A stretch of 43,512 nt of DNA from a virus: positions 1 through 43,512 of IMG/VR virus record IMGVR_UViG_3300021092_003763. One strand, written 5' to 3'. How positions within the stretch are numbered: the first letter of the stretch is position 1; every line of letters begins with the position of its first letter. Below, piece by piece: positions 876 through 43,512 of this stretch. The notes beneath the pieces are model-generated. The model was given only the letters and a program-made list of their open reading frames with translations. It ran no database searches and was not told the DNA's origin. A program made the translations under genes and the position numbers.

Positions 876-909
876 CCTGTGCTTTACAGGAAGAACAGGT
901 AAAAGTTTC

Positions 910-1392: not shown

Positions 1393-1416
1393 GAGACAAC
1401 TTTTTTTATATGTATC

Positions 1417-1953: not shown

Positions 1954-1976
1954 GACTTTAAAATTATTTTCTGTCT

Positions 1977-1984
1977 TATATATC
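1977..1984 (-). promoter_or_regulatory. GATATATA element, candidate late promoter
   Basis: Minus-strand octamer GATATATA, 23 nt before the ATG of the UVR-motif gene, in the short gap after the preceding gene and touching its stop region. The same octamer recurs before virion genes in this window. By analogy with the T4 late promoter (TATAAATA, read by gp55) it may be a late -10 element. Confidence 0.45.
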
Positions 1985-2410: not shown

Positions 2411-2412
2411 TT

Positions 2413-5419: not shown

Positions 5420-5464
5420 AATTCCTCTTTCAAATTTTATGAAAATTCAAATAAAGGTTTCCCC

Positions 5465-6802: not shown

Positions 6803-6843
6803 GATGTAAATGTAGAACTAAACCTCGCAAAAAAAAAATTAAA

Positions 6844-7833
6844 TCAGTAAAAAATTGGGTTTTTTTCGAATAATTCTTCAGCATCAACAGAAACCGCTCC
6901 CGGGTGCCTACACACTAAAGATCCTGCCAAATTAGCGAGTTTTGCCACACCAATTAAATCATCATTGGATGTAACCCCGTTCTCCCCAGAAAAGAATCCC
7001 AATCCAAATACGGCAGAAACGGTATCCCCTGCCCCAGAGACATCGGCAACATCCACACTAATTCCAGGGATATGATGAGAAAAATGTCTTCCAACCAATA
7101 ACATGCCATTTTCTGATAAAGTAATTAGGAAATATTGGTAGTCGAATTCTTCCATCACCAATTGGGCATAATTTACAATCTGGTCAATTTCTAAATCTTC
7201 TTCAGATTTGATATTCACCATAGCCTTAAATTCACTCAGATTTGGCTTGATCAGATCGATTCCTTGATATCGCCCAAGATCTGCCACTTTAGGATCTACC
7301 AAAATCTTTTTCGAGTATTTTTTCGCTATTTCAATTAGAGACGCTAAAACATAATTCGTTAGTAATCCTTTCCCATAATCTTGAAAAATAACTCCATCGT
7401 GAAATTGAATCTGTTCGTCGAAAATTTCAATAATTTTTGAAGTTGAGTTTTCTAATAAATCACAAGTTGTTTCAACATCAATTCTAACGATTTGATGTTT
7501 GTTCCCTATTACTCTGGTTTTTTTTGTTGTTGGTCTGGATTCTTCTTCGATAAAAATAGGATTGATTTTTTTCTCGATACATTTTTCAAACAAAATTTTT
7601 CCATCTTCATCATCACCAACCAAAGATAACAGGGTACAATTGGCTCCGAATGTCGTGATGTTCTGTGCTACATTTGCCGCCCCGCCCAGGAAAAATTCTT
7701 CTTTGTTCTTAAGAACAACCGGAACTGGTGCTTCTGGAGATACCCTGTGAACTTTTCCATACACATAGTGATCCAAAATGGAATCACCCACAACAAGAAT
7801 TTTTTGTGTTGAAAATAATTCTTTGAAATTCAT
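6844..7833 (-). CDS. HldE/RfaE-type heptose-7-phosphate kinase domain (PfkB family)
   Basis: A 329-residue PfkB/ribokinase-fold protein that matches the kinase half of HldE (RfaE domain 1). That enzyme phosphorylates D-glycero-D-manno-heptose 7-phosphate on the way to ADP-heptose. Diagnostic blocks are VVGDSILDHYVYG (14-26), VHRVSPEAPVPVV (28-40), GGAANVAQNI (50-59), DYGKGLLTNYVL (152-163), IKPNLSEF (195-202) and VSGAGDTVSAVFG (265-277) with catalytic Asp270. The cytidylyltransferase-like half of HldE is absent, so the phage would depend on the host or another gene for later steps. It sits between the portal genes and ligase, 10 nt from the portal stop. A tibC-like heptosyltransferase is encoded at 34.2-35.4 kb, a possible user of the product. 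Another PfkB substrate cannot be excluded. Confidence 0.85.
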   Translation of the reverse strand: MNFKELFSTQKILVVGDSILDHYVYGKVHRVSPEAPVPVVLKNKEEFFLGGAANVAQNITTFGANCTLLSLVGDDEDGKILFEKCIEKKINPIFIEEESRPTTKKTRVIGNKHQIVRIDVETTCDLLENSTSKIIEIFDEQIQFHDGVIFQDYGKGLLTNYVLASLIEIAKKYSKKILVDPKVADLGRYQGIDLIKPNLSEFKAMVNIKSEEDLEIDQIVNYAQLVMEEFDYQYFLITLSENGMLLVGRHFSHHIPGISVDVADVSGAGDTVSAVFGLGFFSGENGVTSNDDLIGVAKLANLAGSLVCRHPGAVSVDAEELFEKNPIFY

Positions 7834-7843
7834 TTATTGAAAT

Positions 7844-9445: not shown

Positions 9446-9447
9446 AA

Positions 9448-19791: not shown

Positions 19792-20405
19792 TTTTTTGAA
19801 TTTTTTTTCGTCAAGGTCTCGATTTTCTTACGAATTTTTGTTCTGGCCCTTCTTATTCTTGTAGCGATGGACCTTTTCTTAATTCCATACTTGTCAGCTA
19901 TGTCCTTGTACTTCATACCATAGATCTCTCTATCAATCATGATATCCCTATAAAGTTCCGGGAGATCTCTAATTTCATCTACAACCTGCTCATAAACTTC
20001 ATCAATATCAGATCCGCCTGATAGGAAACTCCAGATAGGATCTTCTTCCACCGAATAAACCACTGAGTCTGAGTCCATCTTGGTTGAATCCAATTCGATT
20101 TCTTCTGTGGTTTTTGTTACGAGCCTTTTTCTACTTTTTTGTAAAAGTAAAGATTCGTTTTTGGCTATATTGTAGCACCAAGTTGAAAAATTTCCCTTCT
20201 CCGCATCATATTGATCTATTTTTTGCCAGACCTTGGACATAGAATTTAAAAAAGCATCCTCTGCTAATTCCATGTCGTTGAGGATGGTGAAACAGTGGTT
20301 CAAGACCCCCGGTTTTAACCTTTCAAATAAAAATTTAAAAGACATATCGTCTTTACCTTGAATAAAATTTTCTGCTAATACCTGAATGTTTTTCTCCTTT
20401 GCCAT
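19788..20405 (-). CDS. ECF-like sigma-70 family factor
   Basis: A 205-residue protein with the two-domain ECF layout. Region 2 (about 23-92) has ELAEDAFLNSMSKVWQKI and the -10-binding stretch GNFSTWCYNIAKN. Region 4 (about 137-195) has LPELYRDIMIDREIYGMKYK and an HTH YKDIADKYGIKKRSIATRIR with a basic tail. An acidic linker of about 45 residues separates them. It should bind core RNA polymerase and direct it to a promoter class, distinct from that of the gp55-like factor. No anti-sigma gene is obvious nearby. It lies 11 nt after the dCMP deaminase gene and overlaps the next gene by 4 nt. Confidence 0.85.
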   Translation of the reverse strand: MAKEKNIQVLAENFIQGKDDMSFKFLFERLKPGVLNHCFTILNDMELAEDAFLNSMSKVWQKIDQYDAEKGNFSTWCYNIAKNESLLLQKSRKRLVTKTTEEIELDSTKMDSDSVVYSVEEDPIWSFLSGGSDIDEVYEQVVDEIRDLPELYRDIMIDREIYGMKYKDIADKYGIKKRSIATRIRRARTKIRKKIETLTKKNSKK

Positions 20406-28300: not shown

Positions 28301-28903
28301 TACATTATTTGCACCATACCAATCAATCGCGAATACGTCGTATCCCTGAAGAGGGGGTGTAGCATCAGTGGATTTTCTAACAATGACAGACATAGACTGT
28401 TGTCCTAAATTCACCAAATTGAAAATTCTTCCCTGATCCACCACAGACATTGTGGCGAGAAAATAATCGACATCGGCAAACCAAAATCTTTCTTTGTTGT
28501 AAAAAGACGAGTACAAACGGGAAGTTAGAACTCCATTGGGCTCATCGGTAGCAACAGAGAAACCAAAATAGTCTACTTTGTCTGCAGTTGGTGAATCAAC
28601 ATCGTTGTTGAGTCGAAGCAAATTCAAGGCAAAAACTGGTCCTGTTGAAAGACAGGTTAAAATTGATCTCTGAAAATACGATCCCTGTGATTCTAGATTT
28701 TTATCAATGTCACCAAAAATTGCAACTGCAGTTGTGACGTCTGGGATATAAACCGGAGCATTGAAAGGACCCTTATTCGAAAAACCAACCACCAGACGAA
28801 TTGTTTGGGAGGTTAGAATGATGTTTTCAGAGGCATCAAATTCCAACGTATAAACGCCGGAAGCTTTGAATTGTGATAAATCGAGTTTGATTTTCTTAGC
28901 CAT
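25367..28903 (-). CDS. Contractile tail sheath protein (gp18-like) with large insertion
   Basis: At 1178 residues this is nearly twice T4 gp18 (659). The C-terminal 390 residues carry the conserved sheath core: FRYIVDTFSGTI, ALAFINAPSM, GWLEPFGLNPIIKKRGFGVV, LLHVRDLLISLENDVEEI, NYLFDFNEDSIR, VIMDASNNPPSVIDMNMG and IDIIIEPARGIQKFI. The N-terminal strand and domain I (VVGFSNKGPFNAPVYI) are also sheath-like. About 360-500 is an insertion with collagen-like and GGSGY repeats: VYITNGGSGYISAPTVSFSG and VLIDGGSGYTSNPSVSISGG. GGSGY repeats are common in phage surface proteins, so this insertion probably forms an exposed knob. Two GATATATA elements lie upstream. Confidence 0.92.
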   Translation of the reverse strand: MAKKIKLDLSQFKASGVYTLEFDASENIILTSQTIRLVVGFSNKGPFNAPVYIPDVTTAVAIFGDIDKNLESQGSYFQRSILTCLSTGPVFALNLLRLNNDVDSPTADKVDYFGFSVATDEPNGVLTSRLYSSFYNKERFWFADVDYFLATMSVVDQGRIFNLVNLGQQSMSVIVRKSTDATPPLQGYDVFAIDWYGANNVPSYVHPYDYISDWFIDIIAVSGDWTDYQALSKDPEWSAFFTPNGFIKSQINNFLSQQNVNIVTQITGCLIVDFVDLNGNNQFIETLVNNNTPSSGLFCAVDAEGLEYLCQNRFKVDLVGNFLIDELTSDRDLQDPTLNFLSYDQQLIQDYLYTQNSIGITGASGVTGGTAGVDYNQLNVGTLFNLGGPTGPTAGVPASALEPYNPSLTFGGLHYLRTNSGVTGGAVVNVYITNGGSGYISAPTVSFSGSGTGAAATAVLTSGAVSSIVLIDGGSGYTSNPSVSISGGGGGTGAAASADILTEPSLTSAEKLRLKDFVTPTSSYSPFIVGTVTIPAGASGNIINQFTTGDLVKLKISGVREIAGNLTITFTHPLDSPVYASQGIEVRPTSFTESTSSVVAGYYQQFGASDYLDIVNVASITGGTASSNALTGQISTRLYQNILYREIEDGDTVWLDEDGTDILYLDTQNTVDRDQFNVSFVRAFNNIARQSPSDLVAYPPFGDVYASDNIGFPVGSNQTDIVSSVASINQFLDVLGTTGPNSFTFVPDQINNKIISVGDYLVSTDLELCETVGANRQSRLTKVTAVARTTTSGVVRVVCARPIFFYSGSPIQVQKFKSIPQFTRSFDFIYLGGYTMRDAQRPNGTDLRVDEILNVLYDTNLAATLATKDVISFRYIVDTFSGTIQPNSKYQLSKLAMMRQKALAFINAPSMAQFRASTDPRFTNAPTAVDPFPPLEAQYIAEGGNLSLNPAYTFSLPTQDLGASFAGYFTPYITVRENNRNANVPPAAYVSNNFVRKFANGEPYNIIAGQKRGTISGGNIVGVEYDFTNEDRGWLEPFGLNPIIKKRGFGVVIFGNQTAYQTVNSAFGLLHVRDLLISLENDVEEILSNYLFDFNEDSIRLEIKTLVDTYLDGVRAGGGIYAYQVIMDASNNPPSVIDMNMGIIDIIIEPARGIQKFINRITVTKTGGIASGGFINFV

Positions 28904-31591: not shown

Positions 31592-34141
31592 TTAACCCTT
31601 TCTGGGAATTTTAGGAATTGCCAAAGTTGGTTTGGCGTTGTCGATTATGTGAGCCAGTTGTGCATCCCTCACGATGTTTTGGTTCAACACAATCGATTGT
31701 TTGTTTATATCTATCATCGATTTGAAAATTCGAATATTGGAAAGCAAAACGGGCGAAGTATATATCCTATAGGCATTGTTGTCTGTTCCATATAGGGGGT
31801 TGGCTGGATTAGTAACAATATCTTTAGGTAAGTCGAAAGTATATGTTTGGGACAAAGTTCTAAAATCTTCATGGACCGGGATTAGATTAGAAGATTGTTC
31901 CTGTGGGTTATTCACATCGTAACTCATCTTCCACATATTGACACCCATCTGGTGATATTTATTAGAAATATTTACAACCAATCCATACCATTCCCCTATT
32001 TCTGGTATGAATTGTAGCTTCGAATTGAAAACAAAATCATTCAAATTTATTTGAATGCTGCCCTCCTGAAGAAAATTCGTGTTGTTGTATTCTTGTGAAC
32101 CAGAATAAATTAAATCTACTCTAAGACCTTGTGGTCCATCATTTGGGTCCAAATAATCTCCTGCAATCAAATTTCTAGCCTGTGCTTTTTGCATCTTAAG
32201 GGTAGGGGTATCTAATGAAAAAGGTAAATTAGGATTGACGACGGAAAATTTGAATTGGTCAATCACAGAAGCCACCTGAAATCCACCGGAGTGATTTAAA
32301 TCTGATTTTATTGCAACATATCCATCTGGATTTTCAGCATAGCCAAGCCACGGAGAAAGTCCATGTTTATAAGGAGTAGTGTTGTAAACAATTCTTGTTG
32401 GGGTTACCGTTTCCTGAGCCATCGGGACAGGGGGATAAGGTTTTTTAGTTAGAGAATTTTCGTTTACATAATTTTTAATTGAAAACCAGCATGTAAAAGC
32501 TATTTCTCCATCAGAATCTAATTTAGGGGTAGTTAAATATCTCACCCCATTTCTATATTTATTCGGTTCAAATACAAATTCTGGATTAGATTGGAAAGCA
32601 TCATATAAATCATAATAATTGTTAAACACAATAGTCCAGTTGTTGTTCAAATCGTAACTTACAATGGGAAGTTTTTCGTACACGTACGATCGGGTGGGGT
32701 CGTTCCCTCGGTCGATCGTGGTCGTTTCGTATTGCTGGGGTTTGGTGATTAATTCCTCCTGAGCCTCGGTTTCCGCACCAAACAATTTTTGAGAATTTAA
32801 AGCTATTCCGTCTAGTTCTTCTTTGTAGGCAGGATCTCTGAAGTAAGTGTTAGATTTCGGATTATATTTTTTCAATTCAATTTTGAAATAAATCGGGGAA
32901 TACATGAAGTCTCTGAACAAATAGGTAGAATTGATTTCATAAATTCTATTGGTGAGAGGAAAATAAAGGATATCCCTTTTACGGGGTTGTGAACCACGAC
33001 CAAAAAGACTTTCAAAATATACCTTGTCAATGTGTATTTCGAATGGCTCTTCGAAAGAAATGCCAAACGGGTCATAGTTGGGTTTATTGTCAGGAAATTG
33101 GTTTTGCGGAACCAGCACTTTAACGCATCTTTCTTCCACCACGTCATACAAAGTCCATTCTTTGAGTACCACGTCTTTTGATCTGGACTGAGGTTGAACA
33201 GAATAGTAATTGGTTTCAAATCCAAACATTTTGTTGACAATCAAACTTAGATCCTTGTAAAGATTGATTGCCTTATTGATGTTATAAGGATTGAATGTGA
33301 AAGGTCCACACTCGTTAAATACCACAGGGCGATTTGATTGTTCAGGAGAACATTGAGGAACTGGGTTTCTAATAACTAAATTATCAGGGCCAGTCGGCAC
33401 ATTAGCATCATAAGTTAAATTCAAATCGAAATTAACAATGACTACATTTGGACTGATTGGTTCTTCTGATTGATAGGCTATACTCCCGTCCGGATTTACG
33501 ACAACGGACGTGAATCTAAACTCGGGGTAAAATGGCTTGCTTGGATCCAATTGTATCGTAAACACTTCTGCTCCTTCACCTGACTCATAAGAATTTTGTA
33601 ATCCCGTTGTTGCAAACCCCATATTTACCCAAAGAGACCAAGTTTCACCATCGACGGAATATCTAAAATCAATTGCAATACCATTGGAGACATTTGCGTT
33701 CGATACGGAATTTAAATTCACACTATATCCCTCTAAAGATGAAGCTGAATCAATAATCCATCCATTGAAAGAACTAACATAATAAAAAGGTTGATCATAA
33801 CTTAGAACTCTGTAGTTTCCTATATAGGTAAAATTCAGGGCAGAGTCTAACTGGGTCAACCTTTCAATTAGCCATTCCTGCGATTGACAAGGAGCATAAT
33901 AATACGTTCCGTTTGAAGCCAAAACCGTATGATAACCATTGCAACCTATTTGAATTGCTCTGGCCAAAGCAGCACCGGTTGTTCCGTAAAGATTATCCGT
34001 GCTTGTCTCTTGAACCTTGGCAGTATTAGGTAAATCGTCCTGATATCTATATCTAGGATCCGATAAATTTCTCTGTTGACCATTCCCATTATATACGGGA
34101 AGTCCAGTAAAGATAGCTTTGTTAGGGGGAATGGCTGACAT
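31592..34141 (-). CDS. Neck protein with gp14-like core and extra domains
   Basis: An 849-residue protein. The central part (about 300-440) recalls T4/cyanophage gp14 neck proteins: an early FGFETNYY, then IHIDKVYFESLFGRGSQPRK, RDILYFPLTNRIYEI (389-403) and SPIYFKIELKKYNP, the latter two like the family's RPxEGDLIYFPL...EI...FYxL...FKL pattern. The N-terminal 300 residues are beta-rich, and the C-terminal region (about 600-830) looks lectin-like (WYGLVVNISNKYHQMGVNMW). T4 gp14 has only 256 residues, so extra domains have been added. Gene order (neck, small terminase, large terminase, sheath, tube) matches T4 14-16-17-18-19 and supports the call. A GATATATA element lies 36 nt upstream. Confidence 0.6.
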   Translation of the reverse strand: MSAIPPNKAIFTGLPVYNGNGQQRNLSDPRYRYQDDLPNTAKVQETSTDNLYGTTGAALARAIQIGCNGYHTVLASNGTYYYAPCQSQEWLIERLTQLDSALNFTYIGNYRVLSYDQPFYYVSSFNGWIIDSASSLEGYSVNLNSVSNANVSNGIAIDFRYSVDGETWSLWVNMGFATTGLQNSYESGEGAEVFTIQLDPSKPFYPEFRFTSVVVNPDGSIAYQSEEPISPNVVIVNFDLNLTYDANVPTGPDNLVIRNPVPQCSPEQSNRPVVFNECGPFTFNPYNINKAINLYKDLSLIVNKMFGFETNYYSVQPQSRSKDVVLKEWTLYDVVEERCVKVLVPQNQFPDNKPNYDPFGISFEEPFEIHIDKVYFESLFGRGSQPRKRDILYFPLTNRIYEINSTYLFRDFMYSPIYFKIELKKYNPKSNTYFRDPAYKEELDGIALNSQKLFGAETEAQEELITKPQQYETTTIDRGNDPTRSYVYEKLPIVSYDLNNNWTIVFNNYYDLYDAFQSNPEFVFEPNKYRNGVRYLTTPKLDSDGEIAFTCWFSIKNYVNENSLTKKPYPPVPMAQETVTPTRIVYNTTPYKHGLSPWLGYAENPDGYVAIKSDLNHSGGFQVASVIDQFKFSVVNPNLPFSLDTPTLKMQKAQARNLIAGDYLDPNDGPQGLRVDLIYSGSQEYNNTNFLQEGSIQINLNDFVFNSKLQFIPEIGEWYGLVVNISNKYHQMGVNMWKMSYDVNNPQEQSSNLIPVHEDFRTLSQTYTFDLPKDIVTNPANPLYGTDNNAYRIYTSPVLLSNIRIFKSMIDINKQSIVLNQNIVRDAQLAHIIDNAKPTLAIPKIPRKG

Positions 34142-34204: not shown

Positions 34205-35386
34205 TTACAATTTCTGTTCGGACATTAAATTTTGGATTTTTGAAATTACCATATCGGGGGTGATTTGTGTTGTACACTCAAACATTCTTTCTGTGTTCTT
34301 GAGTCTAGGACACCAATTCCAATCTCCACGATCGAATTTGTGTCTAACGTCGTTGAAACACCCATGGCACACATCGAAATTAATTACTCTATAATTCAAA
34401 TGAGAAAATTCACAATGGGGAGAAGAAAATCCAGAAATCATTACCACTGGTTTTCTCAAAGCCCAAGCCAGCCAAGATAAACCGGATCCAATACCGACGA
34501 AAAAATCTGCATGATATAAATCTATCATTCGGTCGGTCATGTCTATAGTTCCGGTTTTATCAACAACTCCATCCAAAGTATTTTGTTGGCTGTGAATCAC
34601 CACCACTTCATATCCAATTGATTCGAGATGATCAACCAAAGTTTGCCAACCTCCTGGATAGTGCCAATGTTTTGCATTTGCCGTGGACTCGGTGGCAATA
34701 CAAACATATTTTCCTTCAAACCTCGATTTAGTTGTCTCCAGCCATCCCGGAATTTGAGAAGGTAAAATATCCGAATTTACTTCGACACCAATTAAGTCAC
34801 CTGCAACTTGTTGCAAAGAAATTGATCTCGGATCACGCCGGTGTATGTTCCTATCGTCTTCTTCATACCATCCTACCCCAAACACCACATTGGCAGCTGG
34901 ATCCCTAAATCCAGGGGGTGAAAATTTAATTTGGGGGAAAAAGTGTGACATAATTTCATTCCAAAATGTTGTAACGATTAATTGTGCCTTGTATTTTTTT
35001 CTTAGTTGATCAATCACAGGTAACCATGCAATTGTGTCTCCTAATGAAGAAGAATCTATTGATATCAAAATTTTTCCCCCAAACAAAGTAGACTCGAAAT
35101 CTAAAGACCAAACCTTATTTTCACGATCATAACCTTCCACTAACCAGGGGGTAAACCATCTTCGAAAAAGGGAGGTAAAATGACCAGGCTTCAAAGTACT
35201 TTCGTGGACACACTCCGAAGTGGTTGGATCAATGAATTTTATATTTCTTTCACTCTTTGGATCATTTCCCTTCAAATCTATTTTTGGAGAATAATCATAA
35301 GAAAATTGAAATTGGATTTGTTCAGGAACGTGTACGTTTTTATTTTTGTTGATATTTCTGTAAATTTCTATCCCACTTTTTTTCAT
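34205..35386 (-). CDS. Protein O-heptosyltransferase of the autotransporter (TibC/Aah) family
   Basis: A 393-residue GT-B enzyme. It matches the bacterial autotransporter heptosyltransferase family, which transfers heptose from ADP-heptose to Ser/Thr of secreted repeat proteins. Family blocks: DSSSLGDTIAWLPVIDQLRK (111-130), VTTFWNEI (138-145), VFGVGWYEED (168-177), YVCIATESTANAKHW (227-241), YPGGWQTLVDHLESIGYEVV (243-262), FFVGIGSGLSWLAWALRKPV (295-314) and VMISGFSSPHCEF (315-327). It ends with the cysteine finger: Cys340, Cys343, Cys359 and Cys371 around DVCHGCFND, DWNWCP and FECT, which binds iron in TibC. All parts are present and it should be active. It overlaps the upstream GT4 gene by 4 nt. 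The GSS-repeat fibre at 39.1-43.5 kb is an attractive substrate. Confidence in the family is high, in the substrate low. Confidence 0.92.
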   Translation of the reverse strand: MKKSGIEIYRNINKNKNVHVPEQIQFQFSYDYSPKIDLKGNDPKSERNIKFIDPTTSECVHESTLKPGHFTSLFRRWFTPWLVEGYDRENKVWSLDFESTLFGGKILISIDSSSLGDTIAWLPVIDQLRKKYKAQLIVTTFWNEIMSHFFPQIKFSPPGFRDPAANVVFGVGWYEEDDRNIHRRDPRSISLQQVAGDLIGVEVNSDILPSQIPGWLETTKSRFEGKYVCIATESTANAKHWHYPGGWQTLVDHLESIGYEVVVIHSQQNTLDGVVDKTGTIDMTDRMIDLYHADFFVGIGSGLSWLAWALRKPVVMISGFSSPHCEFSHLNYRVINFDVCHGCFNDVRHKFDRGDWNWCPRLKNTERMFECTTQITPDMVISKIQNLMSEQKL

Positions 35387-36444
35387 GATGGTAAATTCAA
35401 AATTTTTCGAATTAGTTCAACATTGTATTCATGATCAGTCACAGGCTCTTGGTTTGAATAAAAATGAACTAAGGGGGTTTCGTCGTAGTCGTCCATGTAA
35501 GAAGGCAATCTCCTCATTAGTATGGGTAAATTCCAAGAAAGAGATTCCTTTATAACAATCGGGTTCAATTCCCAAATCGAGGAGAAAACAAACAAATCGG
35601 ATGCTTCATAAAATAGGTCAGTATCGTGTCTTTCCCCCCAAATTCTGCAATTTCTTGGAACATTCTTCATCAGAGGCTCCCAATATTCTTGAAAGTTACC
35701 CGCCAAATTACCAATGAAATGAAATTCTATTTGTTCATTTTCTAGTAGTCTGGCGTATTCCATGAGTTCCCCTTGATTTTTACCTGGGGTGAAAAGACCG
35801 ATGTTAATAACATGTTTTTTGTTTGGGTCTAAACCAAGTTGTTCCCTGGCACTTTCTTTTCCAATCCCGATAAAATCTTCTATGGGATATTCCAAGATAT
35901 CCAATTCGAAACCAGAACTTTTAAAAACTTCGGTCATCCATTTATTTACCATCACCAATTTATCAGGAGCCCAGAATTTGTCCAAAATTTTAACATTTGA
36001 AGAGTGACACGTTTCAAAAATAAACCAAGGTCTGTCTGGGGAGAATATTTTTCGACAAATATCATCACCAACGAAGAATTCCACAAAGTCTTGGAAGTGG
36101 ATGACGTCTGGGCAAACCCTTTCCACAATTTCTAGAAATTCACTTTTGTCTTCTGTGTCTATTCTAAAATAATTTTCCCCCAATAAATTTTGTATTCTTT
36201 GTCTTTGAACTACAAATTCGTCCGATAGGTTATTGTATTCTACACAATAGATTTCTCCTTCTGGCAAAAGTTTCTCGATGCACTTATAAAGATACTGAGG
36301 CATCCCCCCAGTTGAAAGGTGCGGAGCAACAAAAAGAATTCTGGGTTTATTTCCAGATTCTTCGAGGATAGAATTTTCAACAGAACTTAAAATTCTATGA
36401 AGGTGATATTTTGTTCTTCGCAGGGTATCAGTTGGGCTTTTCAT
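35383..36444 (-). CDS. Glycosyltransferase, GT4-like (GT-B fold)
   Basis: I choose the ATG at 36444 (MKSPTDTLRRTKYHL); the longer frame begins with TTG at 36507 and overlaps the upstream gene by 80 nt. The product is about 353 residues with the GT4 layout: RILFVAPHLSTGGMPQYLYK (Gly-rich donor/acceptor loop), VCPDVIHFQDF, NIGLFTPGKNQGELMEYARL, and the C-terminal ELNPIVIKE motif (E-x7-E) that contacts the nucleotide sugar. A retaining transfer of a hexose or similar is expected; the acceptor is unknown. It is coupled by a 4-nt overlap to the heptosyltransferase gene, so it may extend the heptose glycan or act on the same protein. Confidence 0.82.
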   Translation of the reverse strand: MKSPTDTLRRTKYHLHRILSSVENSILEESGNKPRILFVAPHLSTGGMPQYLYKCIEKLLPEGEIYCVEYNNLSDEFVVQRQRIQNLLGENYFRIDTEDKSEFLEIVERVCPDVIHFQDFVEFFVGDDICRKIFSPDRPWFIFETCHSSNVKILDKFWAPDKLVMVNKWMTEVFKSSGFELDILEYPIEDFIGIGKESAREQLGLDPNKKHVINIGLFTPGKNQGELMEYARLLENEQIEFHFIGNLAGNFQEYWEPLMKNVPRNCRIWGERHDTDLFYEASDLFVFSSIWELNPIVIKESLSWNLPILMRRLPSYMDDYDETPLVHFYSNQEPVTDHEYNVELIRKILNLPS

Positions 36445-36718
36445 CTTGGTTTTGGGAATAAATTCCGGTGTTGAAATCCAATTGCCCTTCACCGTATTTA
36501 GATACAATATTGTTCACCAATTCTTGTTCTCTTTTTTTGATATCCGACGTTTCTCCATATAAAGACTGAAGTTGTTCTTCAACAAATCTGATTTCCTCGG
36601 TCAGAAAATGATGTTGGATGTTCATGCGACCTATTTTGTCAACGTTTTCACGAGCCTCGTTTCTTAGAGATTGAACCTTTTCTAGTTCTTCTGAACTTAA
36701 TTTAATTTGATTTTCCAT
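36428..36718 (-). CDS. Small coiled-coil protein, paralogue 1 (KYGxG family)
   Basis: A 96-residue helical protein: SSEELEKVQSLRNEA, a coiled coil to about residue 72, then the end KYGEGQLDFNTGIYS (74-88). The 88-residue gene at 38.0 kb has the same plan, including ITSEELNKIQDLKS and KYGNVNLDIETGILTP. Such short KYGxGxIDxxTG proteins recur in phage genomes and have no function known to me. Its end overlaps the GT4 start by 17 nt. Confidence 0.65.
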   Translation of the reverse strand: MENQIKLSSEELEKVQSLRNEARENVDKIGRMNIQHHFLTEEIRFVEEQLQSLYGETSDIKKREQELVNNIVSKYGEGQLDFNTGIYSQNQDEKPN

Positions 36719-36808
36719 AGCAAATTCTTTTATTTTGAAATTGGGTAATTATTTCATCCCTCTTTTGAAATTTTTATTTTTCAAATTCATAAAAGTTCAA
36801 ATGGAAGA

Positions 36809-37954
36809 ATGAAAAAAAGAATTTTAAGTTTAATTCCAGATAGATTGGAAAAACCTATGGGAGGATTAGGCTATCAATATTTAGCCTTACACGATGAATT
36901 GAGTTCCGAATTTGAATTACACACCATTTGCTTTCCCCATCTTTCTTCTGGTTTTGAATTTCCAAATACCAAACAAATTTTTCCGAGTTTTGTTCCAACA
37001 AACGGTGGAAATATAAACCCTTTGGTTTTCAATTTGGCACATCAAATTAATTTCTTTGTCACATCATTGGGTATGCCAAAACCAGATTTGGTGCACGCGT
37101 ACGACTGGCCGGTATACATGCCCGGTGGACATTTGTCTAATCACTTCAATGTTCCTTTGGTGTGCTCTTTAAATTTGGCAATAAGAGGGCAGATCCATAG
37201 GAATTTGAATATTGCCCTTGATCCAACAACAAAAGACGGGAAAACAATTCAAGAAACTTTATTGGAAATGGAAACTGGATTTTTGAGATGGTCCGATCGA
37301 ATTATCACCATATCTAAATTTTATCTCGATATATTTCCAGAATTTTCGTCCAAGATGTCCTTGGTCCCAAATGGAATTGACCTTAAAAAATGGAAATCAA
37401 ACAACCCAAATCCCAAAAAGAAAAAAAATAAAATTGTTTATATCGGACGGTTTTGCGAGATGAAGGGAGTGGATAAATTATTGGAAGCCAATATCCCAGA
37501 CGGCATTGAACTTTGGATCATTGGTTCTCCCGATGGGGGAGATTTATTGTGCAATAAACTTTTGGATCAAAAACTTCAGGAGGGAAAAAAGAACATGTTT
37601 TATTTGGGTCCAAAACACGGTTCAGAAAAAATTCATGTCTTGAACGATGCCGATGGAGTTATTATGCCATCTGTTCACGAACCATTTGGACTGGTTGCCT
37701 TGGAGGCGATGGCCTCTAATTGCGTTTTACTTTCTTCCAGAAGAGACGGGTTATCAGATTTCGTTAATTCAGAAAATTCTATTTTTGTTGATCCCACGGT
37801 AGAAGGGATCGAACAAGGATTTTTAGAATTCTTGAATTTGTCGGAAGAAAGAAAAGATTATTTCAGAGAGCAGGGAAGAAAAACATGCCAGAAATATACA
37901 TGGTTTTCGGCTGGAGAAAAAATGGCAGAAGTTTACCGTGAACTCCTGAATTAA
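36809..37954 (+). CDS. Glycosyltransferase, GT4/GT5-like; only plus-strand gene
   Basis: A 381-residue GT-B enzyme. The N-terminus ILSLIPDRLEKPMGGLGYQY carries the Gly-rich loop of glycogen-synthase-like transferases. PDLVHAYDWP (91-100), ITISKFYLDIF, LVPNGIDLKKW, IVYIGRFCEMKGVDKLLEAN and HEPFGLVALEAMASN (E-x7-E) follow in family order. Transfer from a nucleotide sugar is expected; substrates are unknown. It lies between two paralogous small minus-strand genes and is transcribed against everything else. The 90-nt divergent gap (36719-36808) is A/T-rich and shows no GATATATA octamer, so it probably has another promoter type. Confidence 0.88.
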   Translation: MKKRILSLIPDRLEKPMGGLGYQYLALHDELSSEFELHTICFPHLSSGFEFPNTKQIFPSFVPTNGGNINPLVFNLAHQINFFVTSLGMPKPDLVHAYDWPVYMPGGHLSNHFNVPLVCSLNLAIRGQIHRNLNIALDPTTKDGKTIQETLLEMETGFLRWSDRIITISKFYLDIFPEFSSKMSLVPNGIDLKKWKSNNPNPKKKKNKIVYIGRFCEMKGVDKLLEANIPDGIELWIIGSPDGGDLLCNKLLDQKLQEGKKNMFYLGPKHGSEKIHVLNDADGVIMPSVHEPFGLVALEAMASNCVLLSSRRDGLSDFVNSENSIFVDPTVEGIEQGFLEFLNLSEERKDYFREQGRKTCQKYTWFSAGEKMAEVYRELLN

Positions 37955-37980
37955 AATTGATGTCTTTAATTTCTAGGAGT
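37942..37980. terminator. Stem-loop between convergent genes, candidate bidirectional terminator
   Basis: ACTCCT (37942-37947) pairs with AGGAGT (37975-37980), and AATTAAA (37949-37955) with TTTAATT (37965-37971), around a 9-nt loop with a small internal bulge. It covers the stop codons of both converging genes. No long U-run follows on either strand, so strength is uncertain. Confidence 0.5.
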
Positions 37981-38232
37981 GAGAATTCCTGTTTCTATAT
38001 CCAAATTAACGTTTCCGTACTTGTAATCCATCATTCCCATGAAGTTCTTTTCCTCGATTTTGAATTTCATGAATTTATCCTCTAAATCTTTTTTTCTTTG
38101 AGATAGAACCAACATCTCCAATTCCAAAGATCCAAACTCAATTATAAATTTTTCACCGGTGGATTTCAAATCCTGAATTTTATTTAATTCTTCGGAGGTA
38201 ATTGTTTGCTGTGTGGAATCTGTTGTATTCAT
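37966..38232 (-). CDS. Small coiled-coil protein, paralogue 2 (KYGxG family)
   Basis: An 88-residue protein with ITSEELNKIQDLKS, a central coiled coil (SLELEMLVLSQRKKDLEDKF) and the end KYGNVNLDIETGILTP, paralogous to the 96-residue gene on the other side of the plus-strand glycosyltransferase. Its ATG overlaps the end of the preceding gene by 4 nt. Function unknown. Confidence 0.65.
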   Translation of the reverse strand: MNTTDSTQQTITSEELNKIQDLKSTGEKFIIEFGSLELEMLVLSQRKKDLEDKFMKFKIEEKNFMGMMDYKYGNVNLDIETGILTPRN

Positions 38233-38537
38233 ACCCTGCTGAAAGTAGAAGTGGAGTTGATAGAATTTGAAGATTGTAGTTCCGTTATAAGAAAAGTTTC
38301 CAATCCGTTTATCAACCGATCATAAGGATCAGAAATATTGACGTCGAAAGTTAATGTCTCTCTGTTTAAATCGGGGTAAACCACTGTATCCCTACAAATT
38401 CCATCAGATGAGGTAACAAAAAGATCCACCATTAAATCTCCTTTATAAGAAAGATGTGCATTTATTTTCAACAAAGGAGACTCGTGAATGAGAAGCGATG
38501 TTGGACTTTTAAAAAGTCCTGTAACTTGAATTGCCAT
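38229..38537 (-). CDS. Hypothetical beta-rich small protein
   Basis: I choose the ATG at 38537 (MAIQVTGLFKSPTS), 14 nt after the SET gene stop, giving 102 residues. The longer TTG frame to 38585 overlaps the SET gene and has a Lys-rich, unlikely start. The protein alternates beta-like stretches (LLKINAHLSYKGDLMVDLFV, ETLTFDVNISDPY) and ends with a Ser/Asn-rich tail. It may be a small virion or fibre-associated protein. The family is not recognised. Confidence 0.6.
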   Translation of the reverse strand: MAIQVTGLFKSPTSLLIHESPLLKINAHLSYKGDLMVDLFVTSSDGICRDTVVYPDLNRETLTFDVNISDPYDRLINGLETFLITELQSSNSINSTSTFSRV

Positions 38538-38551
38538 ATTTTTATATTTTT

Positions 38552-39112
38552 TTATATTATGTTTTTCTTTTCTCTCGAATTCCAATAATCTTCACCCCCG
38601 TAATAAATACATATCTCTTTTCCTATTTCTATATCTTCCAAAGCAAAGAAATTGAAAGCTTTATATTCGGGATGGTCTATCCAATCAGCATTTGGTGAAT
38701 TGGAATGATTATAAATACATCCATATCCAAGTGGAATAACATACTCGGAGAGTGTTCTTTTTGGATAAAGATATCTATAATCAGTGAGAAGATCACCTTC
38801 TTTTGGTATTTTTAATAGATAGCAAGTTTCAATTATTTCTCCCTTTGAAATTTTTTGAGTTGCAAAAACTCCCATTCCCTTTCCTTCTGATATCTTAATT
38901 TCTATTTTTGTTGGTACATTTATTTGTGGAGGAGGTTCTGATCTTAATTGTGAAATTTTTTCTTTTGACACAAAGACATTTTCAGGCAATGTGTAATTTT
39001 CACCTAGGTGGTGATATCCCTTTATTTTCTTTTTAAAATCTTCTAAGTCAACTGTTATAACCATAGCTCCGCTATTTTTGATTTTTTGAATTATTTGAGG
39101 ATCAGTTATCAT
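38552..39112 (-). CDS. SET-domain protein (putative lysine methyltransferase)
   Basis: A 186-residue protein. Residues about 68-175 form a SET domain: KISEGKGMGVFATQKISKGE (73-92, SAM-binding N-SET), GYGCIYNHSNSPNADW (129-144, the NHS/N-pseudoknot motif), FNFFALEDIEIGKEI (153-167) and IYYGGEDYW, where a conserved Tyr should lie in the active site. SET proteins methylate lysine side chains using S-adenosylmethionine. The usual post-SET cysteines are absent. The first 65 residues are helical and unfamiliar. It lies 3 nt after the fibre stop, so the fibre, another virion protein or a host protein could be its target. Confidence 0.85.
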   Translation of the reverse strand: MITDPQIIQKIKNSGAMVITVDLEDFKKKIKGYHHLGENYTLPENVFVSKEKISQLRSEPPPQINVPTKIEIKISEGKGMGVFATQKISKGEIIETCYLLKIPKEGDLLTDYRYLYPKRTLSEYVIPLGYGCIYNHSNSPNADWIDHPEYKAFNFFALEDIEIGKEICIYYGGEDYWNSREKKNII

Positions 39113-39115
39113 AAA

Positions 39116-42100
39116 TTAACCTGGCCTGTAACAAGGGATTAAAACTACAGCACCACCTTTACCAGCTGAATCAAGTATAACTTCCATCCAAACATCTGGT
39201 TCTTTGAGATACATTTCAGCGCTACCATCACTACCTATAGCATATTCTGGCGGAACTACCTGATTTACGGGCGGTGTATTACTATATCGCGTGGCATCAA
39301 ATCTTATCCATTTAGAGGATGATGGTGTTGATGATATATGTACCCATGCACTTGGTGACGTTTGAATTCCATAACCTGTGTTATTAATAATACCTCTACT
39401 GGTACCATTTGTTGAAAATCCAATCGAATCAGCTGCCGGAAAGTAAATTCCGGTGTTGGTGTCTGAAGAATTTAAACCAGCGTTAAGAACTGGTGCGGTG
39501 GCAGATCCTGCAACCAACTGGATATTGGCGTTGGTCGTTGTATTCAATCTGAGAGTCTCGGTACCACCAGCCACAAGACCCATATTGTCGGCTGAGGGAA
39601 AGTAAATTCCGGTGTTGGTGTCTGTAGAATTTAGACCAGCGTTTAAGATCGGATTAGCAGCAGACCCTGCCAGAAGATTAATTCTTCCATTAGAATCTAT
39701 CCTCATCGCTTCTACGCCACCTTCAACAAATCCAATTGTGTCGGCAGCCGGAAAGTAAATTCCGGTGTTGGTGTCTGAAGAATTTGCTAAACCAGCAGAG
39801 ATAGAAGGCAATGAAACACTTCCTGCCGTTAATTGAATTTGTCCATTTCCTTGAATCCTAAATAATTCTGTTGTTCCCCCGTAGAAAGCATGAACAAAAG
39901 AAGAGGTTGCCTGTGGAACAGAATACCAAAGTCTTCCAGTGAGGGGATATGTACCAAAGGCGTAGTTTACATTAGAAGCATTAATACCAGACCACAATGT
40001 TATCTTTTCTCCGGTGGAAACATTAGTGGGAGTAGGACCAGCATTCCCCGCCGATGCATTAGGATAAGGAGAAAACTCTATTCTATTTGATGTTGTATTT
40101 GAAAGATGAATTTGACCGCCACCTAAAGCATTTGTTGGGGTTCCAAGAAGATTTAAAGTCGGGGAAGAAAAAGTTATATTCGATTCAACAGATACATTAG
40201 GAGAAGAACCATTTAGGGTTAAAACACCATTGTCAGTTGTTCCAGATAAGGTGACAGAACCAGATGTTCCCGAAGATCCTGATGATCCAGAAGAACCAGA
40301 AGAACCGGACGATCCAGAAGAACCGGATGATCCAGAAGAACCTGATGATCCTGAAGAACCTGATGATCCAGAAGAACCTGATGATCCAGAAGTACCTCTT
40401 GTTCCCGAAGAACCAGAAGTTCCTGATGATCCGGAAGAACCAGAAGAACCTGATGATCCGGAAGAACCAGATGATCCAGAAGATCCAGAAGAACCGGATG
40501 ATCCAGAAGAACCAGATGATCCAGAAGATCCAGAAGAACCTGACGATCCAGAAGAACCAGATGTTCCCGAAGATCCTGATGATCCAGAAGAACCAGAAGA
40601 ACCGGACGATCCGGAAGAACCGGATGATCCAGAAGAACCTGATGATCCTGAAGAACCTGATGATCCAGAAGAACCTGATGATCCAGAAGTACCTCTTGTT
40701 CCCGAAGAACCAGAAGTTCCTGATGATCCGGAAGAACCAGAAGAACCTGATGATCCGGAAGAACCAGATGATCCAGAAGATCCAGAAGAACCAGATGATC
40801 CAGAAGATCCAGAAGAACCGGATGATCCAGAAGAACCCGATGATCCTGAAGATCCTGAAGAACCGGATGATCCAGAAGAACCCGATGATCCTGAAGATCC
40901 TGAAGAACCGGATGATCCAGAAGACCCAGAAGAACCTGATGATCCGGAAGAACCAGATGATCCAGAAGATCCAGAAGAACCTGATGATCCAGAAGAACCA
41001 GATGTTCCCGATGAGCCAGATGTTCCAGAGGATCCAGGAGTTCCTGAAGAACCTGATGATCCGGAAGAACCAGATGATCCAGAAGATCCAGAAGAACCAG
41101 ATGATCCAGAAGATCCAGAAGAACCGGATGATCCAGAAGAACCCGATGATCCTGAAGATCCTGAAGAACCGGATGATCCAGAAGAACCCGATGATCCTGA
41201 AGATCCTGAAGAACCGGATGATCCAGAAGACCCAGAAGAACCTGATGATCCGGAAGAACCAGATGATCCAGAAGATCCAGAAGAACCTGATGATCCAGAA
41301 GAACCAGATGTTCCCGATGAGCCAGATGTTCCAGAGGATCCAGGAGTTCCTGAAGAACCTGATGATCCGGAAGAACCAGATGATCCAGAAGATCCAGAAG
41401 AACCAGATGATCCAGAAGATCCAGAAGAACCGGATGATCCAGAAGAACCCGATGATCCTGAAGATCCTGAAGAACCGGATGATCCAGAAGAACCCGATGA
41501 TCCTGAAGATCCTGAAGAACCGGATGATCCAGAAGAACCTGATGATCCAGAAGAACCAGATGTTCCCGATGAGCCAGATGTTCCAGAGGATCCAGAAGAA
41601 CCGGATGATCCAGAAGAACCTGATGATCCTGAAGAACCTGATGATCCTGAAGAACCGGATGATCCAGAAGAACCAGAGGTTCCTCTAGTACCGGAAGATC
41701 CAGAAGAACCTGATGTTCCAGAAGAACCTGATGTTCCAGAAGAACCTGATGATCCTGAAGAACCTGAAGAACCTGAAGAACCAGAAGTTCCAGAAGAACC
41801 TGATGATCCAGATGATCCTGAAGAACCTGAAGAACCTGATGATCCTGAAGAACCTGATGATCCTGAAGAACCGGATGATCCAGAAGAACCAGAGGTTCCT
41901 CTAGTACCGGAAGATCCAGAAGAACCAGATGTTCCAGAAGAACCTGATGTTCCAGAAGAACCTGATGATCCAGAAGAACCTGATGATCCTGAAGAACCTG
42001 AAGAACCTGAAGAACCAGAAGTTCCAGAAGAACCTGATGATCCAGATGATCCTGAAGAACCTGATGATCCTGAAGAACCAGATGACCCAGATGATCCAGA

Positions 42101-43512
42101 TGTTCCAGAAGAACCTGATGTTCCAGAAGATCCAGAAGTTCCCGAAGTACCAGATGCTCCAGTAACACCAGAAGTTCCCGAAGTTCCTGATGAACCTGAC
42201 GATCCAGAAGAACCGGATGATCCAGAAGAACCGGATGATCCAGAAGAACCGGACGATCCTGAAGAACCTGATGATCCAGAAGAACCGGACGATCCAGAAG
42301 AACCGGATGATCCAGAAGTTCCTGAAGATCCGGAAGTTCCTGAAGATCCAGAAGTACCAGATGACCCAGAAGAACCGGACGATCCAGAAGAACCGGATGA
42401 TCCAGAAGAACCGGATGATCCAGAAGAACCCGATGATCCCGAAGAACCTGATGATCCAGAAGAACCCGATGATCCTGAAGATCCTGAAGAACCGGATGAT
42501 CCAGAAGTTCCTGAAGATCCAGAAGTTCCTGAAGATCCAGAAGTTCCTGAAGATCCAGAACTACCCGATGATCCAGAAGAACCTGATGATCCTGAAGAAC
42601 CTGATGATCCTGAAGAACCTGATGATCCTGATGATCCAGAAGAACCTGACGATCCTGATGAACCAGATGTTCCGGAAGAACCAGAAGTTCCAGATGATCC
42701 AGATGATCCTGAAGAACCTGATGATCCTGAAGAACCTGAAGAACCTGATGATCCAGATGATCCTGAAGAACCTGATGATCCTGAAGAACCTGATGATCCA
42801 GATGATCCTGAAGAACCTGAAGAACCTGATGATCCTGAAGAACCTGATGATCCTGAAGAACCGGATGATCCAGAAGAACCAGAGGTTCCTCTAGTACCGG
42901 AAGATCCAGAAGAACCAGATGTTCCAGAAGAACCTGATGTTCCAGAAGAACCCGATGAACCTGAGCTTCCTGAACTTCCTGAACTTCCGCTTGACCCGGA
43001 AGTGCCAGAAGATCCGGCAATCCCAAAATCTAAACAAGCTTGATCTCCTGCGGTGGGAAAATTATTTGAAGCGTTAGCTGAAATAAAAGAAACACCAAAA
43101 ACGTGATATGTTCCCTGGTCGGTGTTGGAAGTAACCTGGTATCTGTATTGCTTCCCGTTGATTAAAACTCGCATTACAGAGCCAACCGTAACACTATCCA
43201 GAAAGGCATCTACATTATTACTGTTTGAATCTGTATCGCTTATAGAAAAAGATGTAACGTTCGATCCGATTTCACCATTAGTCCCAAATATTTGGCCGGA
43301 TGAAACAGCCTCACTTGAACCCCAACTCCAACATCCGTCGGAAGGGGTTTCGCCAGAAGTTCCTGAAGTACCTCTTGTTCCGCTAGATCCAGAAGAACCT
43401 GATGAGCCTGAAGTTCCGGAAGATCCTGAAGAACCTGATGATCCTGAAGAACCTGATGATCCTGAAGAACCGGATGATCCAGAAGAACCAGAGGTTCCTC
43501 TAGTACCGGAAG
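39116..43512 (-). CDS. Giant Gly-Ser-Ser repeat fibre protein, partial (5' end off the window)
   Basis: The frame is open to the right edge, giving at least 1464 residues; the ATG at 43174 is internal. From the N-terminal side: a GSS/GTS tract reaching the edge, a domain of about 110 residues (SDGCWSWGSSEAVSSG, then VLINGKQYRYQVTS, DQACLDFGIAG), a tract of about 920 residues of G-S-S triplets with scattered T and rare TRG or TPG units, and a 375-residue C-terminal head. The head has three 51-53-residue repeats with LNAGLNSxDTNTGIYFPAAD and GGxExxRI, and ends KGGAVVLIPCYRPG. Gly-X-Y periodicity suggests a collagen-like or extended stalk. No peptidase S74 chaperone is seen. The Ser/Thr density makes it a good acceptor for the nearby glycosyltransferases. 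Confidence 0.88.
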   Translation of the reverse strand, partial: SGTRGTSGSSGSSGSSGSSGSSGSSGSSGSSGTSGSSGSSGSSGTRGTSGTSGETPSDGCWSWGSSEAVSSGQIFGTNGEIGSNVTSFSISDTDSNSNNVDAFLDSVTVGSVMRVLINGKQYRYQVTSNTDQGTYHVFGVSFISANASNNFPTAGDQACLDFGIAGSSGTSGSSGSSGSSGSSGSSGSSGTSGSSGTSGSSGSSGTRGTSGSSGSSGSSGSSGSSGSSGSSGSSGSSGSSGSSGSSGSSGSSGSSGSSGSSGSSGSSGSSGSSGTSGSSGTSGSSGSSGSSGSSGSSGSSGSSGSSGSSGSSGSSGSSGSSGTSGSSGTSGSSGTSGSSGSSGSSGSSGSSGSSGSSGSSGSSGSSGSSGSSGSSGSSGSSGSSGTSGSSGTSGSSGTSGSSGSSGSSGSSGSSGSSGSSGSSGSSGSSGSSGSSGSSGSSGTSGTSGVTGASGTSGTSGSSGTSGSSGTSGSSGSSGSSGSSGSSGSSGSSGSSGTSGSSGSSGSSGSSGSSGSSGSSGTSGSSGTSGSSGSSGTRGTSGSSGSSGSSGSSGSSGSSGSSGSSGSSGSSGSSGTSGSSGSSGSSGSSGSSGTSGSSGTSGSSGSSGTRGTSGSSGSSGSSGSSGSSGSSGSSGSSGSSGSSGTSGSSGTSGSSGSSGSSGSSGSSGSSGSSGSSGSSGSSGSSGSSGSSGSSGSSGSSGSSGSSGSSGSSGSSGSSGSSGTPGSSGTSGSSGTSGSSGSSGSSGSSGSSGSSGSSGSSGSSGSSGSSGSSGSSGSSGSSGSSGSSGSSGSSGSSGSSGSSGSSGSSGSSGSSGSSGSSGSSGTPGSSGTSGSSGTSGSSGSSGSSGSSGSSGSSGSSGSSGSSGSSGSSGSSGSSGSSGSSGSSGSSGSSGSSGSSGSSGSSGSSGSSGSSGSSGSSGSSGSSGSSGSSGTSGSSGTRGTSGSSGSSGSSGSSGSSGSSGSSGSSGSSGSSGSSGSSGSSGTSGSSGSSGSSGSSGSSGSSGSSGSSGSSGSSGSSGSSGSSGSSGSSGTSGSSGTRGTSGSSGSSGSSGSSGSSGSSGSSGSSGSSGSSGSSGSSGSSGTSGSVTLSGTTDNGVLTLNGSSPNVSVESNITFSSPTLNLLGTPTNALGGGQIHLSNTTSNRIEFSPYPNASAGNAGPTPTNVSTGEKITLWSGINASNVNYAFGTYPLTGRLWYSVPQATSSFVHAFYGGTTELFRIQGNGQIQLTAGSVSLPSISAGLANSSDTNTGIYFPAADTIGFVEGGVEAMRIDSNGRINLLAGSAANPILNAGLNSTDTNTGIYFPSADNMGLVAGGTETLRLNTTTNANIQLVAGSATAPVLNAGLNSSDTNTGIYFPAADSIGFSTNGTSRGIINNTGYGIQTSPSAWVHISSTPSSSKWIRFDATRYSNTPPVNQVVPPEYAIGSDGSAEMYLKEPDVWMEVILDSAGKGGAVVLIPCYRPG
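39438..39790 (-). repeat. Three 153-159-bp repeats in the fibre head
   Basis: The segment AGTAAATTCCGGTGTTGGTG recurs with starts near 39442, 39601 and 39754, spaced 159 and 153 bp. It encodes the DTNTGIYFP core of three head repeats. The DNA between copies has diverged, so the duplication is old, while the core is kept. Confidence 0.85.
40257..43014 (-). repeat. 2.76-kb tract of 9-bp-periodic GSS codons
   Basis: Nearly pure repetition of GSS/GTS triplets, about 920 residues. Codon choice varies (TCT, TCA, TCC, GGA, GGT), so copies are distinguishable. Long shadow frames are open on both strands because the repeat lacks stop codons in several frames. Larger duplications are embedded: a marker GATGTTCCCGATGAGCC recurs at 41001, 41307 and 41559 (306 and 252 bp apart, both multiples of 9). 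Assembly through this tract may be collapsed or expanded. Confidence 0.92.
43352..43512 (-). repeat. Second GSS-type tract, continuing past the right edge
   Basis: The same 9-bp codon pattern resumes after the 110-residue spacer domain and reaches the last base. It includes the GAGGTTCCTCTAGTACCGG unit also present near 41676, 41891 and 42881. The true length of this tract is unknown. Confidence 0.9.

Follow-up and report, generated by a model that had tools for sequence, protein, structure and literature searches.

What would an enzyme of the autotransporter heptosyltransferase (BAHT) family, whose members TibC and AAH O-heptosylate the autotransporters TibA and AIDA-I (PMC4358343, in its excerpted text), do in a bacterial virus whose genome also encodes a long collagen-like fibre? 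The question is raised by a 43.5-kb viral record (IMG/VR record IMGVR_UViG_3300021092_003763, positions 1 to 43,512; the whole of this stretch is referred to here as the window), in which T4-like genes (viz. large terminase and neck protein) are present and in which a cassette at 34205–36507 encodes a BAHT-family protein and a GT4-type glycosyltransferase. We consider it probable that this BAHT-type O-glycosyltransferase and its GT4 partner decorate the Ser and Thr residues of the G-[S/T]-S triplets of the fibre that the phage itself encodes. Our analyses suggest an unrecognised mode of decorating collagen-like proteins in phages and in some bacteria, and a full-text literature search, which most subscription journals and preprints lay outside, found no paper joining autotransporter heptosyltransferases with phage collagen-like fibres.

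By its profile matches and its predicted fold, the 393-amino acid (aa) product of the first cassette gene is a member of the BAHT family. It matches the NCBIfam model TIGR04414 with 261.9 bits (E 8.6e-78; cut-off 200), and TibC (4rap) matches it with a phmmer E-value of 1e-56; the model for lipopolysaccharide (LPS) heptosyltransferase I, TIGR02193, gives only 31.9 bits (cut-off 185.3), and no PHROGs family matches at E of 0.01 or below. An AlphaFold2 model built with 32 phage homologues (pLDDT 89.5) superposes with its residues 23–392 on TibC (4rb4) at a Z-score of 37.8 and 2.2 Å over 355 residues, the N-terminal beta-barrel on the GT-B core of the predicted structure being included, as against Z-scores of 18.8–19.7, for the core only, with WaaC and WaaF. 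The catalytic base of TibC is Asp110 and its donor residues are Thr226, Lys230, Trp305 and Arg286 (excerpts of PMC4358343); the window protein has Asp117, Thr235, Lys239, Trp305 and Arg286 at these positions, and the four cysteines of the iron finger (Cys340/343/359/371) are all intact, from which metal binding is predicted. An earlier note on this DNA had described a full-length enzyme of this family carrying the motifs SLGDTIAW and GIGSGLSWLAWAL together with the cysteine finger, and in this it was correct; a grouping with WaaC/WaaF-type proteins without the finger, which would have counted against it, was not found. Most of these residues are retained in a wider set of phage BAHT proteins (78 clusters at 80% identity): all 78 clusters have the base Asp, Trp305 and the four Cys, 77/78 have the donor Lys, and the Thr position is occupied by Thr or Ser in 78/78.

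The candidate acceptor is a fibre of which 1,464 aa are visible. The stretch of about 920 residues of GSS/GTS that had been noticed earlier is one run of 308 triplets (924 aa); with 18 more the fibre has 326 G-X-Y triplets, of which 270 are GSS and 42 are GTS, so that Ser/Thr makes up 98% of the X and Y positions, and its composition includes 584 Ser, 53 Thr and 2 Pro. It matches the Pfam model PF01391 (Collagen) with 444.8 bits (cut-off 27.2), and a triple helix may be predicted from this family membership.

That fibres of this kind and BAHT enzymes belong together is indicated by two DNA-pattern scans of IMG/VR, which were independent of BAHT and gave at least 120 stretches each (samples only); Ser/Thr-rich collagen-like repeats are thus easily found in viral metagenomes. 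One scan was for G-[S/T]-[S/T] triplets and the other, as control, for triplets with X and Y codons starting with C or G (mostly proline, alanine and glutamine). Fifty Ser/Thr-rich records were chosen by hand (length about 32 kb or more, S/T at least 0.7), leaving out L169, L259 and L273, which qualify but have 7–14 triplets, mostly GTT or GST. The controls were chosen by length from 118 loci, dropping L280 (S/T 0.5), L325, L354, L363 and L366 (Cys-rich or without real triplets) and records below about 32.7 kb. In whole-record searches, BAHT was found in 27/50 of the Ser/Thr-rich records (26 above the cut-off) and in 0/49 of the proline-type controls, or 1/50 if L164 is included, which the Ser/Thr pattern had also drawn. 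Fisher's test for 27/50 against 0/49 gives a p-value of 1e-10, which, like the other p-values given here, overstates independence because the rows share descent, and to that extent the case is weakened. By length class the counts are 4/17 against 0/25 (p 0.021), 9/16 against 0/16 (p 0.0008) and 14/17 against 0/8 (p 0.00015); counting L169, L259 and L273 as negative gives 27/53 (p 2.9e-10), and removing G001 and G047, whose BAHT was known beforehand, gives a p-value of 3e-10. The co-occurrence with GSS fibres proposed in the earlier note is hence better than chance across IMG/VR, and gene pairs in bacteria (see below) provide independent support for it.

Among named phages a BAHT match is present in 4 of 50,697 records. 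In the cultured Microcystis phage Mel-JY01 (PP395634), a plus-strand frame at bases 2–3052 holds 176 triplets in runs of at least 6 and stops 1.7 kb before the frame of a 1,226-aa BAHT fusion. In the 735-kb phage LR756501 a Ser/Thr triplet open reading frame (ORF; S/T 0.73) is found near the GT4-BAHT, and in LR756504 no such ORF was found in the 41 kb examined. The annotation of Mel-JY01 covers only the end of the triplet frame (2519–3052, hypothetical protein) and places minus-strand genes over the repeats. One of these, at 739–2298 (−) of PP395634.1 (L472), would encode a Val-Pro-Glu repeat and is probably a spurious antisense reading, as is probably also the ORF at 40230–43043 (+) opposite the window fibre. 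The gene at 4750–8430 of the same record carries the deposited name 'methyltransferase FkbM'; Pfam and hidden Markov model scans identify its product as a GT4-BAHT fusion, with no FkbM domain among its matches at E of 0.001 or below.

Pairs of the same kind occur in bacteria. Among 46 BAHT loci from a scan of bacterial genomes, a G-X-Y ORF (S/T 0.64–0.98) lies directly beside the BAHT gene in L548, L552, L564, L565, L566 and L584, and elsewhere in the locus in L551, L569 and L570, which are possibly phage DNA; no Ser/Thr-rich G-X-Y ORF was found in the Caballeronia, Burkholderia and Pandoraea loci. All of the partner frames tested (9/9) match Pfam Collagen. The pair of Methylobacter luteus (L565; triplet protein at 8863–9726, BAHT at 9767–11065) lies among chromosomal genes (by eye, transcription-repair coupling factor and glycolate oxidase subunits), and in Polaromonas and gammaproteobacterial metagenome-assembled genomes the partners resemble, by eye, small lipoproteins with triplet tails; here as in Methylobacter they are small and apparently secreted. 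Of 201 Methylococcales genomes, which are related and hence not independent, 11 pass the BAHT cut-off, at 12 places. A triplet ORF lies within 1.5 kb in 6/7 of the mid-scoring places (304–327 bits; two of the genomes were already in the 46-locus scan), in 0/4 of the TibC-like places (654–663 bits; 4 of 5 examined) and in 0/19 of the sub-cut-off loci, two of which (L605 and L606) seem to be incomplete or disrupted BAHT genes. The triplet pattern itself is present in six of the seven mid-scoring genomes and in 7/194 of the others, although the exact matches listed for two of the six (G180 and G333) are at some distance from BAHT. Bacterial partners and BAHT-positive phage fibres also share a triplet grammar: Thr/Ser occupies the X position at a fraction of 0.89 in both, Y is mostly Ser, and Pro at X is below 0.5% in both, versus 38% in the proline-type controls.

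The enzymes of these pairs are related to one another. A maximum-likelihood tree of 65 proteins, with 34 thinned phage rows and five rows each of the Caballeronia and Pandoraea types, is cut in two by one branch with moderate support (88/98). One side contains the TibC-like, Caballeronia, Pandoraea, Pelosinus, Acidaminococcaceae and Chloroflexi enzymes and one phage enzyme (L396), and the other contains 33/34 phage enzymes, 13/13 bacterial enzymes with G-X-Y partners and L601. The spacing between two conserved Trp residues is 66–67 residues in 18/18 proteins of the first side; in the second it is at most 64 in 42/47 (57–59 in 21, 63–64 in 21) and 66–71 in five. The window protein (W247–W305, spacing 58) falls into the 57–59 group and the Methylococcales enzymes into the 63–64 group, and the alignments show no equivalent in the window protein of the TibC stretch that carries the thumb tip. 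In TibC this beta-hairpin thumb, with its tip Phe265-Val266, is required for the dodecamer, and tip mutants are dimeric and leave TibA unmodified (excerpts of PMC4358343). The tree split, the shorter thumb segment and the Gly-X-Y partners thus place the window enzyme in a sister branch, so that the description 'autotransporter-type' is right for the family and wrong for the side of the tree. The acceptors of the sister branch are likely Ser/Thr-rich collagen-like repeats, and the window protein may form dimers with an open groove suiting a long thin acceptor. SLS acceptor repeats (TIGR04415), which the autotransporter reading implied, were found in 0/50 phage records (the window's included; the records are possibly fragments), and an autotransporter acceptor for the phage enzyme was therefore dropped. 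In bacteria, SLS repeats are present in 4/44 BAHT genomes searched (from the 46 loci) and in none of the nine with G-X-Y partners.

Both GT4-type transferases that the earlier note placed beside the BAHT gene match PF00534 (Table 1). The one that overlaps the BAHT gene is its neighbour in most relatives, and matches to the other are confined to the closest loci, among them L081–L087, L124 and L130. In 37/78 phage clusters the frame extends for more than 250 aa ahead of the BAHT domain, and a GT4 domain was detected in 8/9 of the long-N-terminus proteins scanned. Several of these extensions look, by eye, like the separate GT4 of the window, which has a phmmer match in the BAHT's own frame in L424, L427, L428 and L459 (near-copies). 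These fusions argue that the two enzymes act together. Other arrangements of the domains were also seen: in L065, L066 and L074 the GT4-BAHT fusion is directly followed by a second, shorter BAHT-like gene, in which the family-model match crosses one in-frame TAG, and in L057 (3608–7471), next to a Ser/Thr triplet ORF, a single 1,288-aa protein combines GT9-like domains and an FkbM methyltransferase domain with a BAHT domain at its C-terminus.

For the acceptor proposed in the earlier note, the case rests on these wider samples; within the window's own lineage (its relatives by terminase, many of whose records are fragments) the link is weak. The Ser/Thr triplet pattern is present in 16/24 BAHT-positive lineage records and in 2/7 of the BAHT-negative records whose contig spans the empty cassette site (G037, G039, G043, G154, G156, G157 and G158), or in 2/6 with the fibre side covered; neither contrast is significant (p 0.10 and p 0.18), and scoring was not done in the same way for the two groups. 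The contigs of G036, G038 and G150 stop short of the cassette site and are outside the negative count. In two fragmentary records, G039 (50 kb) and G156 (44 kb), the cassette site is empty and BAHT is absent, yet Ser/Thr-rich fibres are encoded, and these records break a strict one-to-one rule for enzyme and GSS fibre in the lineage; the BAHT-positive G005 (mixed fibre, S/T 0.28) and G007 (GAQ-type fibre, S/T 0.17, cut by the contig end) are doubtful in the opposite way. These results weigh against our interpretation, and so do several from the IMG/VR samples: 23/50 Ser/Thr-rich records are without BAHT; the triplet grammar of BAHT-negative Ser/Thr fibres is that of the positive ones, so that grammar alone is no predictor of the enzyme; and the distance from BAHT to the sampled fibre is at most 10 kb in 17/27, a modest effect (combined p 0.011), for which reason proximity was set aside as a chief argument. 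Transferases of the GT2, GT11, GT25 and galactosyltransferase families occur once each in BAHT-negative Ser/Thr loci (59 of 79 ORFs; among 25 of 51 families listed), counts too few to conclude that they replace BAHT, and a crAss-type capsid match in such loci indicates that some of those phages are of another kind.

The identity of the sugar forms a separate part of the argument. Conserved donor residues and a kinase gene elsewhere in the window suggest heptose. The kinase, called HldE-type in the earlier note, has heptose-7-phosphate kinase 4e84 as its only PDB relative at E of 1e-10 or below, so that the likeness stands, but its TIGR02198 score stays under the cut-off of 345 bits, which is passed in 0/50 records. 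Near-full copies are present in 14/50 records, 14/14 of them with BAHT, and partial copies in three more; in the relatives read, the gene lies between ligase and portal-like genes. The kinase is found in 0/5 of the BAHT-negative records covering both sites (G037, G039, G156, G157 and G158), versus 14/24 of the BAHT-positive ones (p 0.042), G155 being BAHT-positive without the kinase and G150 having the kinase but ending before the BAHT site. Less favourable to our interpretation, an HldC-type domain is weakly matched in 4/50 records and above the cut-off in none, and gmhA, gmhB and HldC are not among the 25 of 127 matched families listed for the relative G002 (55/88 ORFs scanned). The gmhA, gmhB and hldC homologues that the earlier note proposed to look for thus gave no strong match in the relatives; a full phage-borne ADP-heptose pathway is not supported, and the other steps must be host-supplied if the sugar is heptose.

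These gaps would be expected if the cassette enzyme O-glycosylated G-[S/T]-S repeats in proteins but drew on another nucleotide sugar, with a product other than heptose. The counterpart of TibC position 300, which determines sugar stereochemistry (excerpts of PMC4358343), also leaves room for this, being Gly in 48 and Ser in 28 of the 78 phage clusters and never Pro, as does the Arg286 column, with Arg in 35/78 (an alignment-dependent count). We nevertheless regard another sugar as unlikely, since Asp117, Lys239 and Trp305 are kept almost throughout, the kinase resembles a heptose-7-phosphate kinase and accompanies BAHT where the cassette site is covered, and AAH has Ser at position 300 yet uses heptose (excerpts of PMC4358343). 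A more distant alternative is that the cassette acts on the LPS or capsule of the host so as to keep other phages out, the link to fibres reflecting gene pools shared by large aquatic phages. Phage glycosyltransferases have been interpreted in this manner, e.g., in pelagimyophages (excerpts of PMC7029224), and the weak link within the lineage would agree with it; the much closer superposition of the model on TibC than on WaaC/WaaF, the bacterial pairs outside phages and the absence of BAHT from proline-type collagen records in matching length classes make it quite improbable.

The view that the Ser/Thr triplets are flexible linkers enlarged by slippage and left unmodified draws on their near-perfect repetition at the DNA level and on the 23/50 Ser/Thr-rich records without BAHT, but the contrast with the proline-type controls and the bacterial neighbours speak against it, and we give it little credence. 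Least probable to us is modification of some other part of the virion, for instance the neck protein encoded beside the cassette or a beta-helix spike: known family members modify beta-helix proteins, and in the window's lineage the neck gene is the usual neighbour of the cassette, but this gene and a small protein flank the site both with and without the cassette, the SLS repeat is lacking in the records searched, and in deeper phage loci (L040–L080) BAHT is located elsewhere, in 6/41 directly beside a Ser/Thr-rich G-X-Y gene.

If the fibre is the acceptor, the BAHT enzyme would take ADP-heptose as its donor, with Asp117 serving as the base, and proceed along the repetitive chain, placing heptose on Ser/Thr of the triplets before or during fibre assembly; the GT4 partner would extend this with a further sugar or take alternate sites, and the HldE-like kinase would increase the host's ADP-heptose supply. 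Such a coat could stabilise a proline-poor triple helix, shield the fibre from proteases or receptors, or tune adsorption. A bolder proposal, which we advance only tentatively and think rather doubtful, is that the short-thumb branch consists of dedicated enzymes for collagen-like repeats in phages and bacteria, and that dense O-heptosylation of G-[T/S]-S replaces the stabilising role of hydroxyproline in animals, allowing nearly proline-free triplets to serve as virion fibres and bacterial surface proteins. Work on a vent worm collagen reportedly shows that a triple helix lacking hydroxyproline can be stabilised by glycosylation of Thr.

The features of the window are collected in Table 1. 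On the minus strand the reading order is fibre, SET-domain protein, three small proteins, GT4, BAHT and neck gene. The earlier note had placed the fibre a few genes upstream in the transcript; the two genes do share a strand, but the second GT4 gene intervenes on the plus strand, so that a simple common transcript does not follow. The SET-domain gene (38552–39112, −; PF00856 5.9e-12) lies directly next to that of the fibre, here and in close relatives; enzymes of this kind are generally unusual in phages. Two related portal-like genes, so assigned by eye, lie in tandem at 7844–9445 and 9448–11073 (−), as in the relatives whose region was read, and a sheath-like protein of 1,178 aa (25367–28903, −), also identified by eye, has Gly-rich stretches inside. 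A gene at 19788–20405 (−) is sigma-factor-like by appearance, an ORF of the relative G002 matches the Bacteroidetes-type sigma family TIGR02985, and the nearest named terminases to that of the window include those of Tenacibaculum and Sphingomonas phages; taken together, these genes suggest that the host may be a bacteroidete.

Table 1. Positions of the cassette, the fibre and associated genes in the window.
Feature	Position	Strand	Basis
BAHT-family glycosyltransferase, 393 aa, short thumb segment	34205..35386	-	TIGR04414, TibC match, residues
GT4-type glycosyltransferase, overlaps BAHT gene	35383..36507	-	PF00534 5.4e-11
Second GT4-type glycosyltransferase	36809..37954	+	PF00534 9.9e-22
Collagen-like fibre, open at contig end, candidate acceptor	39116..43510	-	Pfam Collagen E 1.4e-136
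Main triplet run, 308 G-X-Y triplets	40253..43024	-	residues 163-1086 of open frame
Second triplet run, 18 triplets	43346..43507	-	residues 2-55 of open frame
HldE-type heptose-7-phosphate kinase domain (by likeness), without adenylyltransferase domain	6844..7833	-	TIGR02198 318.2 bits; 4e84 E 1.2e-52
Small protein, usual neighbour of GT4-BAHT cassette site	36428..36718	-	adjoins site with and without cassette in relatives
Neck (gp14-like) protein, usual neighbour on other side of cassette	31592..34141	-	phrog_679 head closure 2.8e-06; PF11649 0.0008, under its cut-off

Were this interpretation true, glycosyltransferase genes of large phages that are otherwise read as host-surface tools would receive a new interpretation, a family known for virulence autotransporters would gain a sister branch and protein O-glycosylation a new class of acceptor, and the bacterial loci would offer a simple two-gene pair for making glycosylated collagen-like material.

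With TibC and AAH the window enzyme shares the predicted fold with its N-terminal beta-barrel, the catalytic Asp, the donor Lys and Trp and the four-Cys iron finger, and in some bacteria and phages the gene likewise adjoins one for a repetitive Ser/Thr-rich protein. Hence, by profile and fold it is in their family, but two family-tied features, the thumb and the SLS acceptor, are wanting: the thumb segment is shorter (58 versus 66–67), and the partners are G-[T/S]-S triplet proteins and not SLS beta-helices; it also differs in being phage-borne and in that its relatives are often fused to GT4. Mycobacteriophage transferases are reportedly phage-encoded, with glycans on the C-termini of capsid and tail tube subunits, and no collagen-like acceptor is known there. 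BclA belongs to Gram-positive spores, and its repeat type, sugars and enzymes differ. It is nevertheless similar to the proposed product in being a glycan-bearing collagen-like protein, on Bacillus spores, whose glycans are thought to aid hydration and interaction (excerpts of PMC8968730), and mycobacteriophage virions are similar in that phage structural proteins carry glycans (Freeman et al. 2023, as cited in the excerpted text of PMC12619734). Mimivirus, with collagen-modifying enzymes such as R699, resembles the window in that one virus encodes both a collagen and a collagen-glycosylating enzyme, although there the sugar is hydroxylysine-linked glucose, the enzyme is another one and the virus infects amoebae (PMC9546862).

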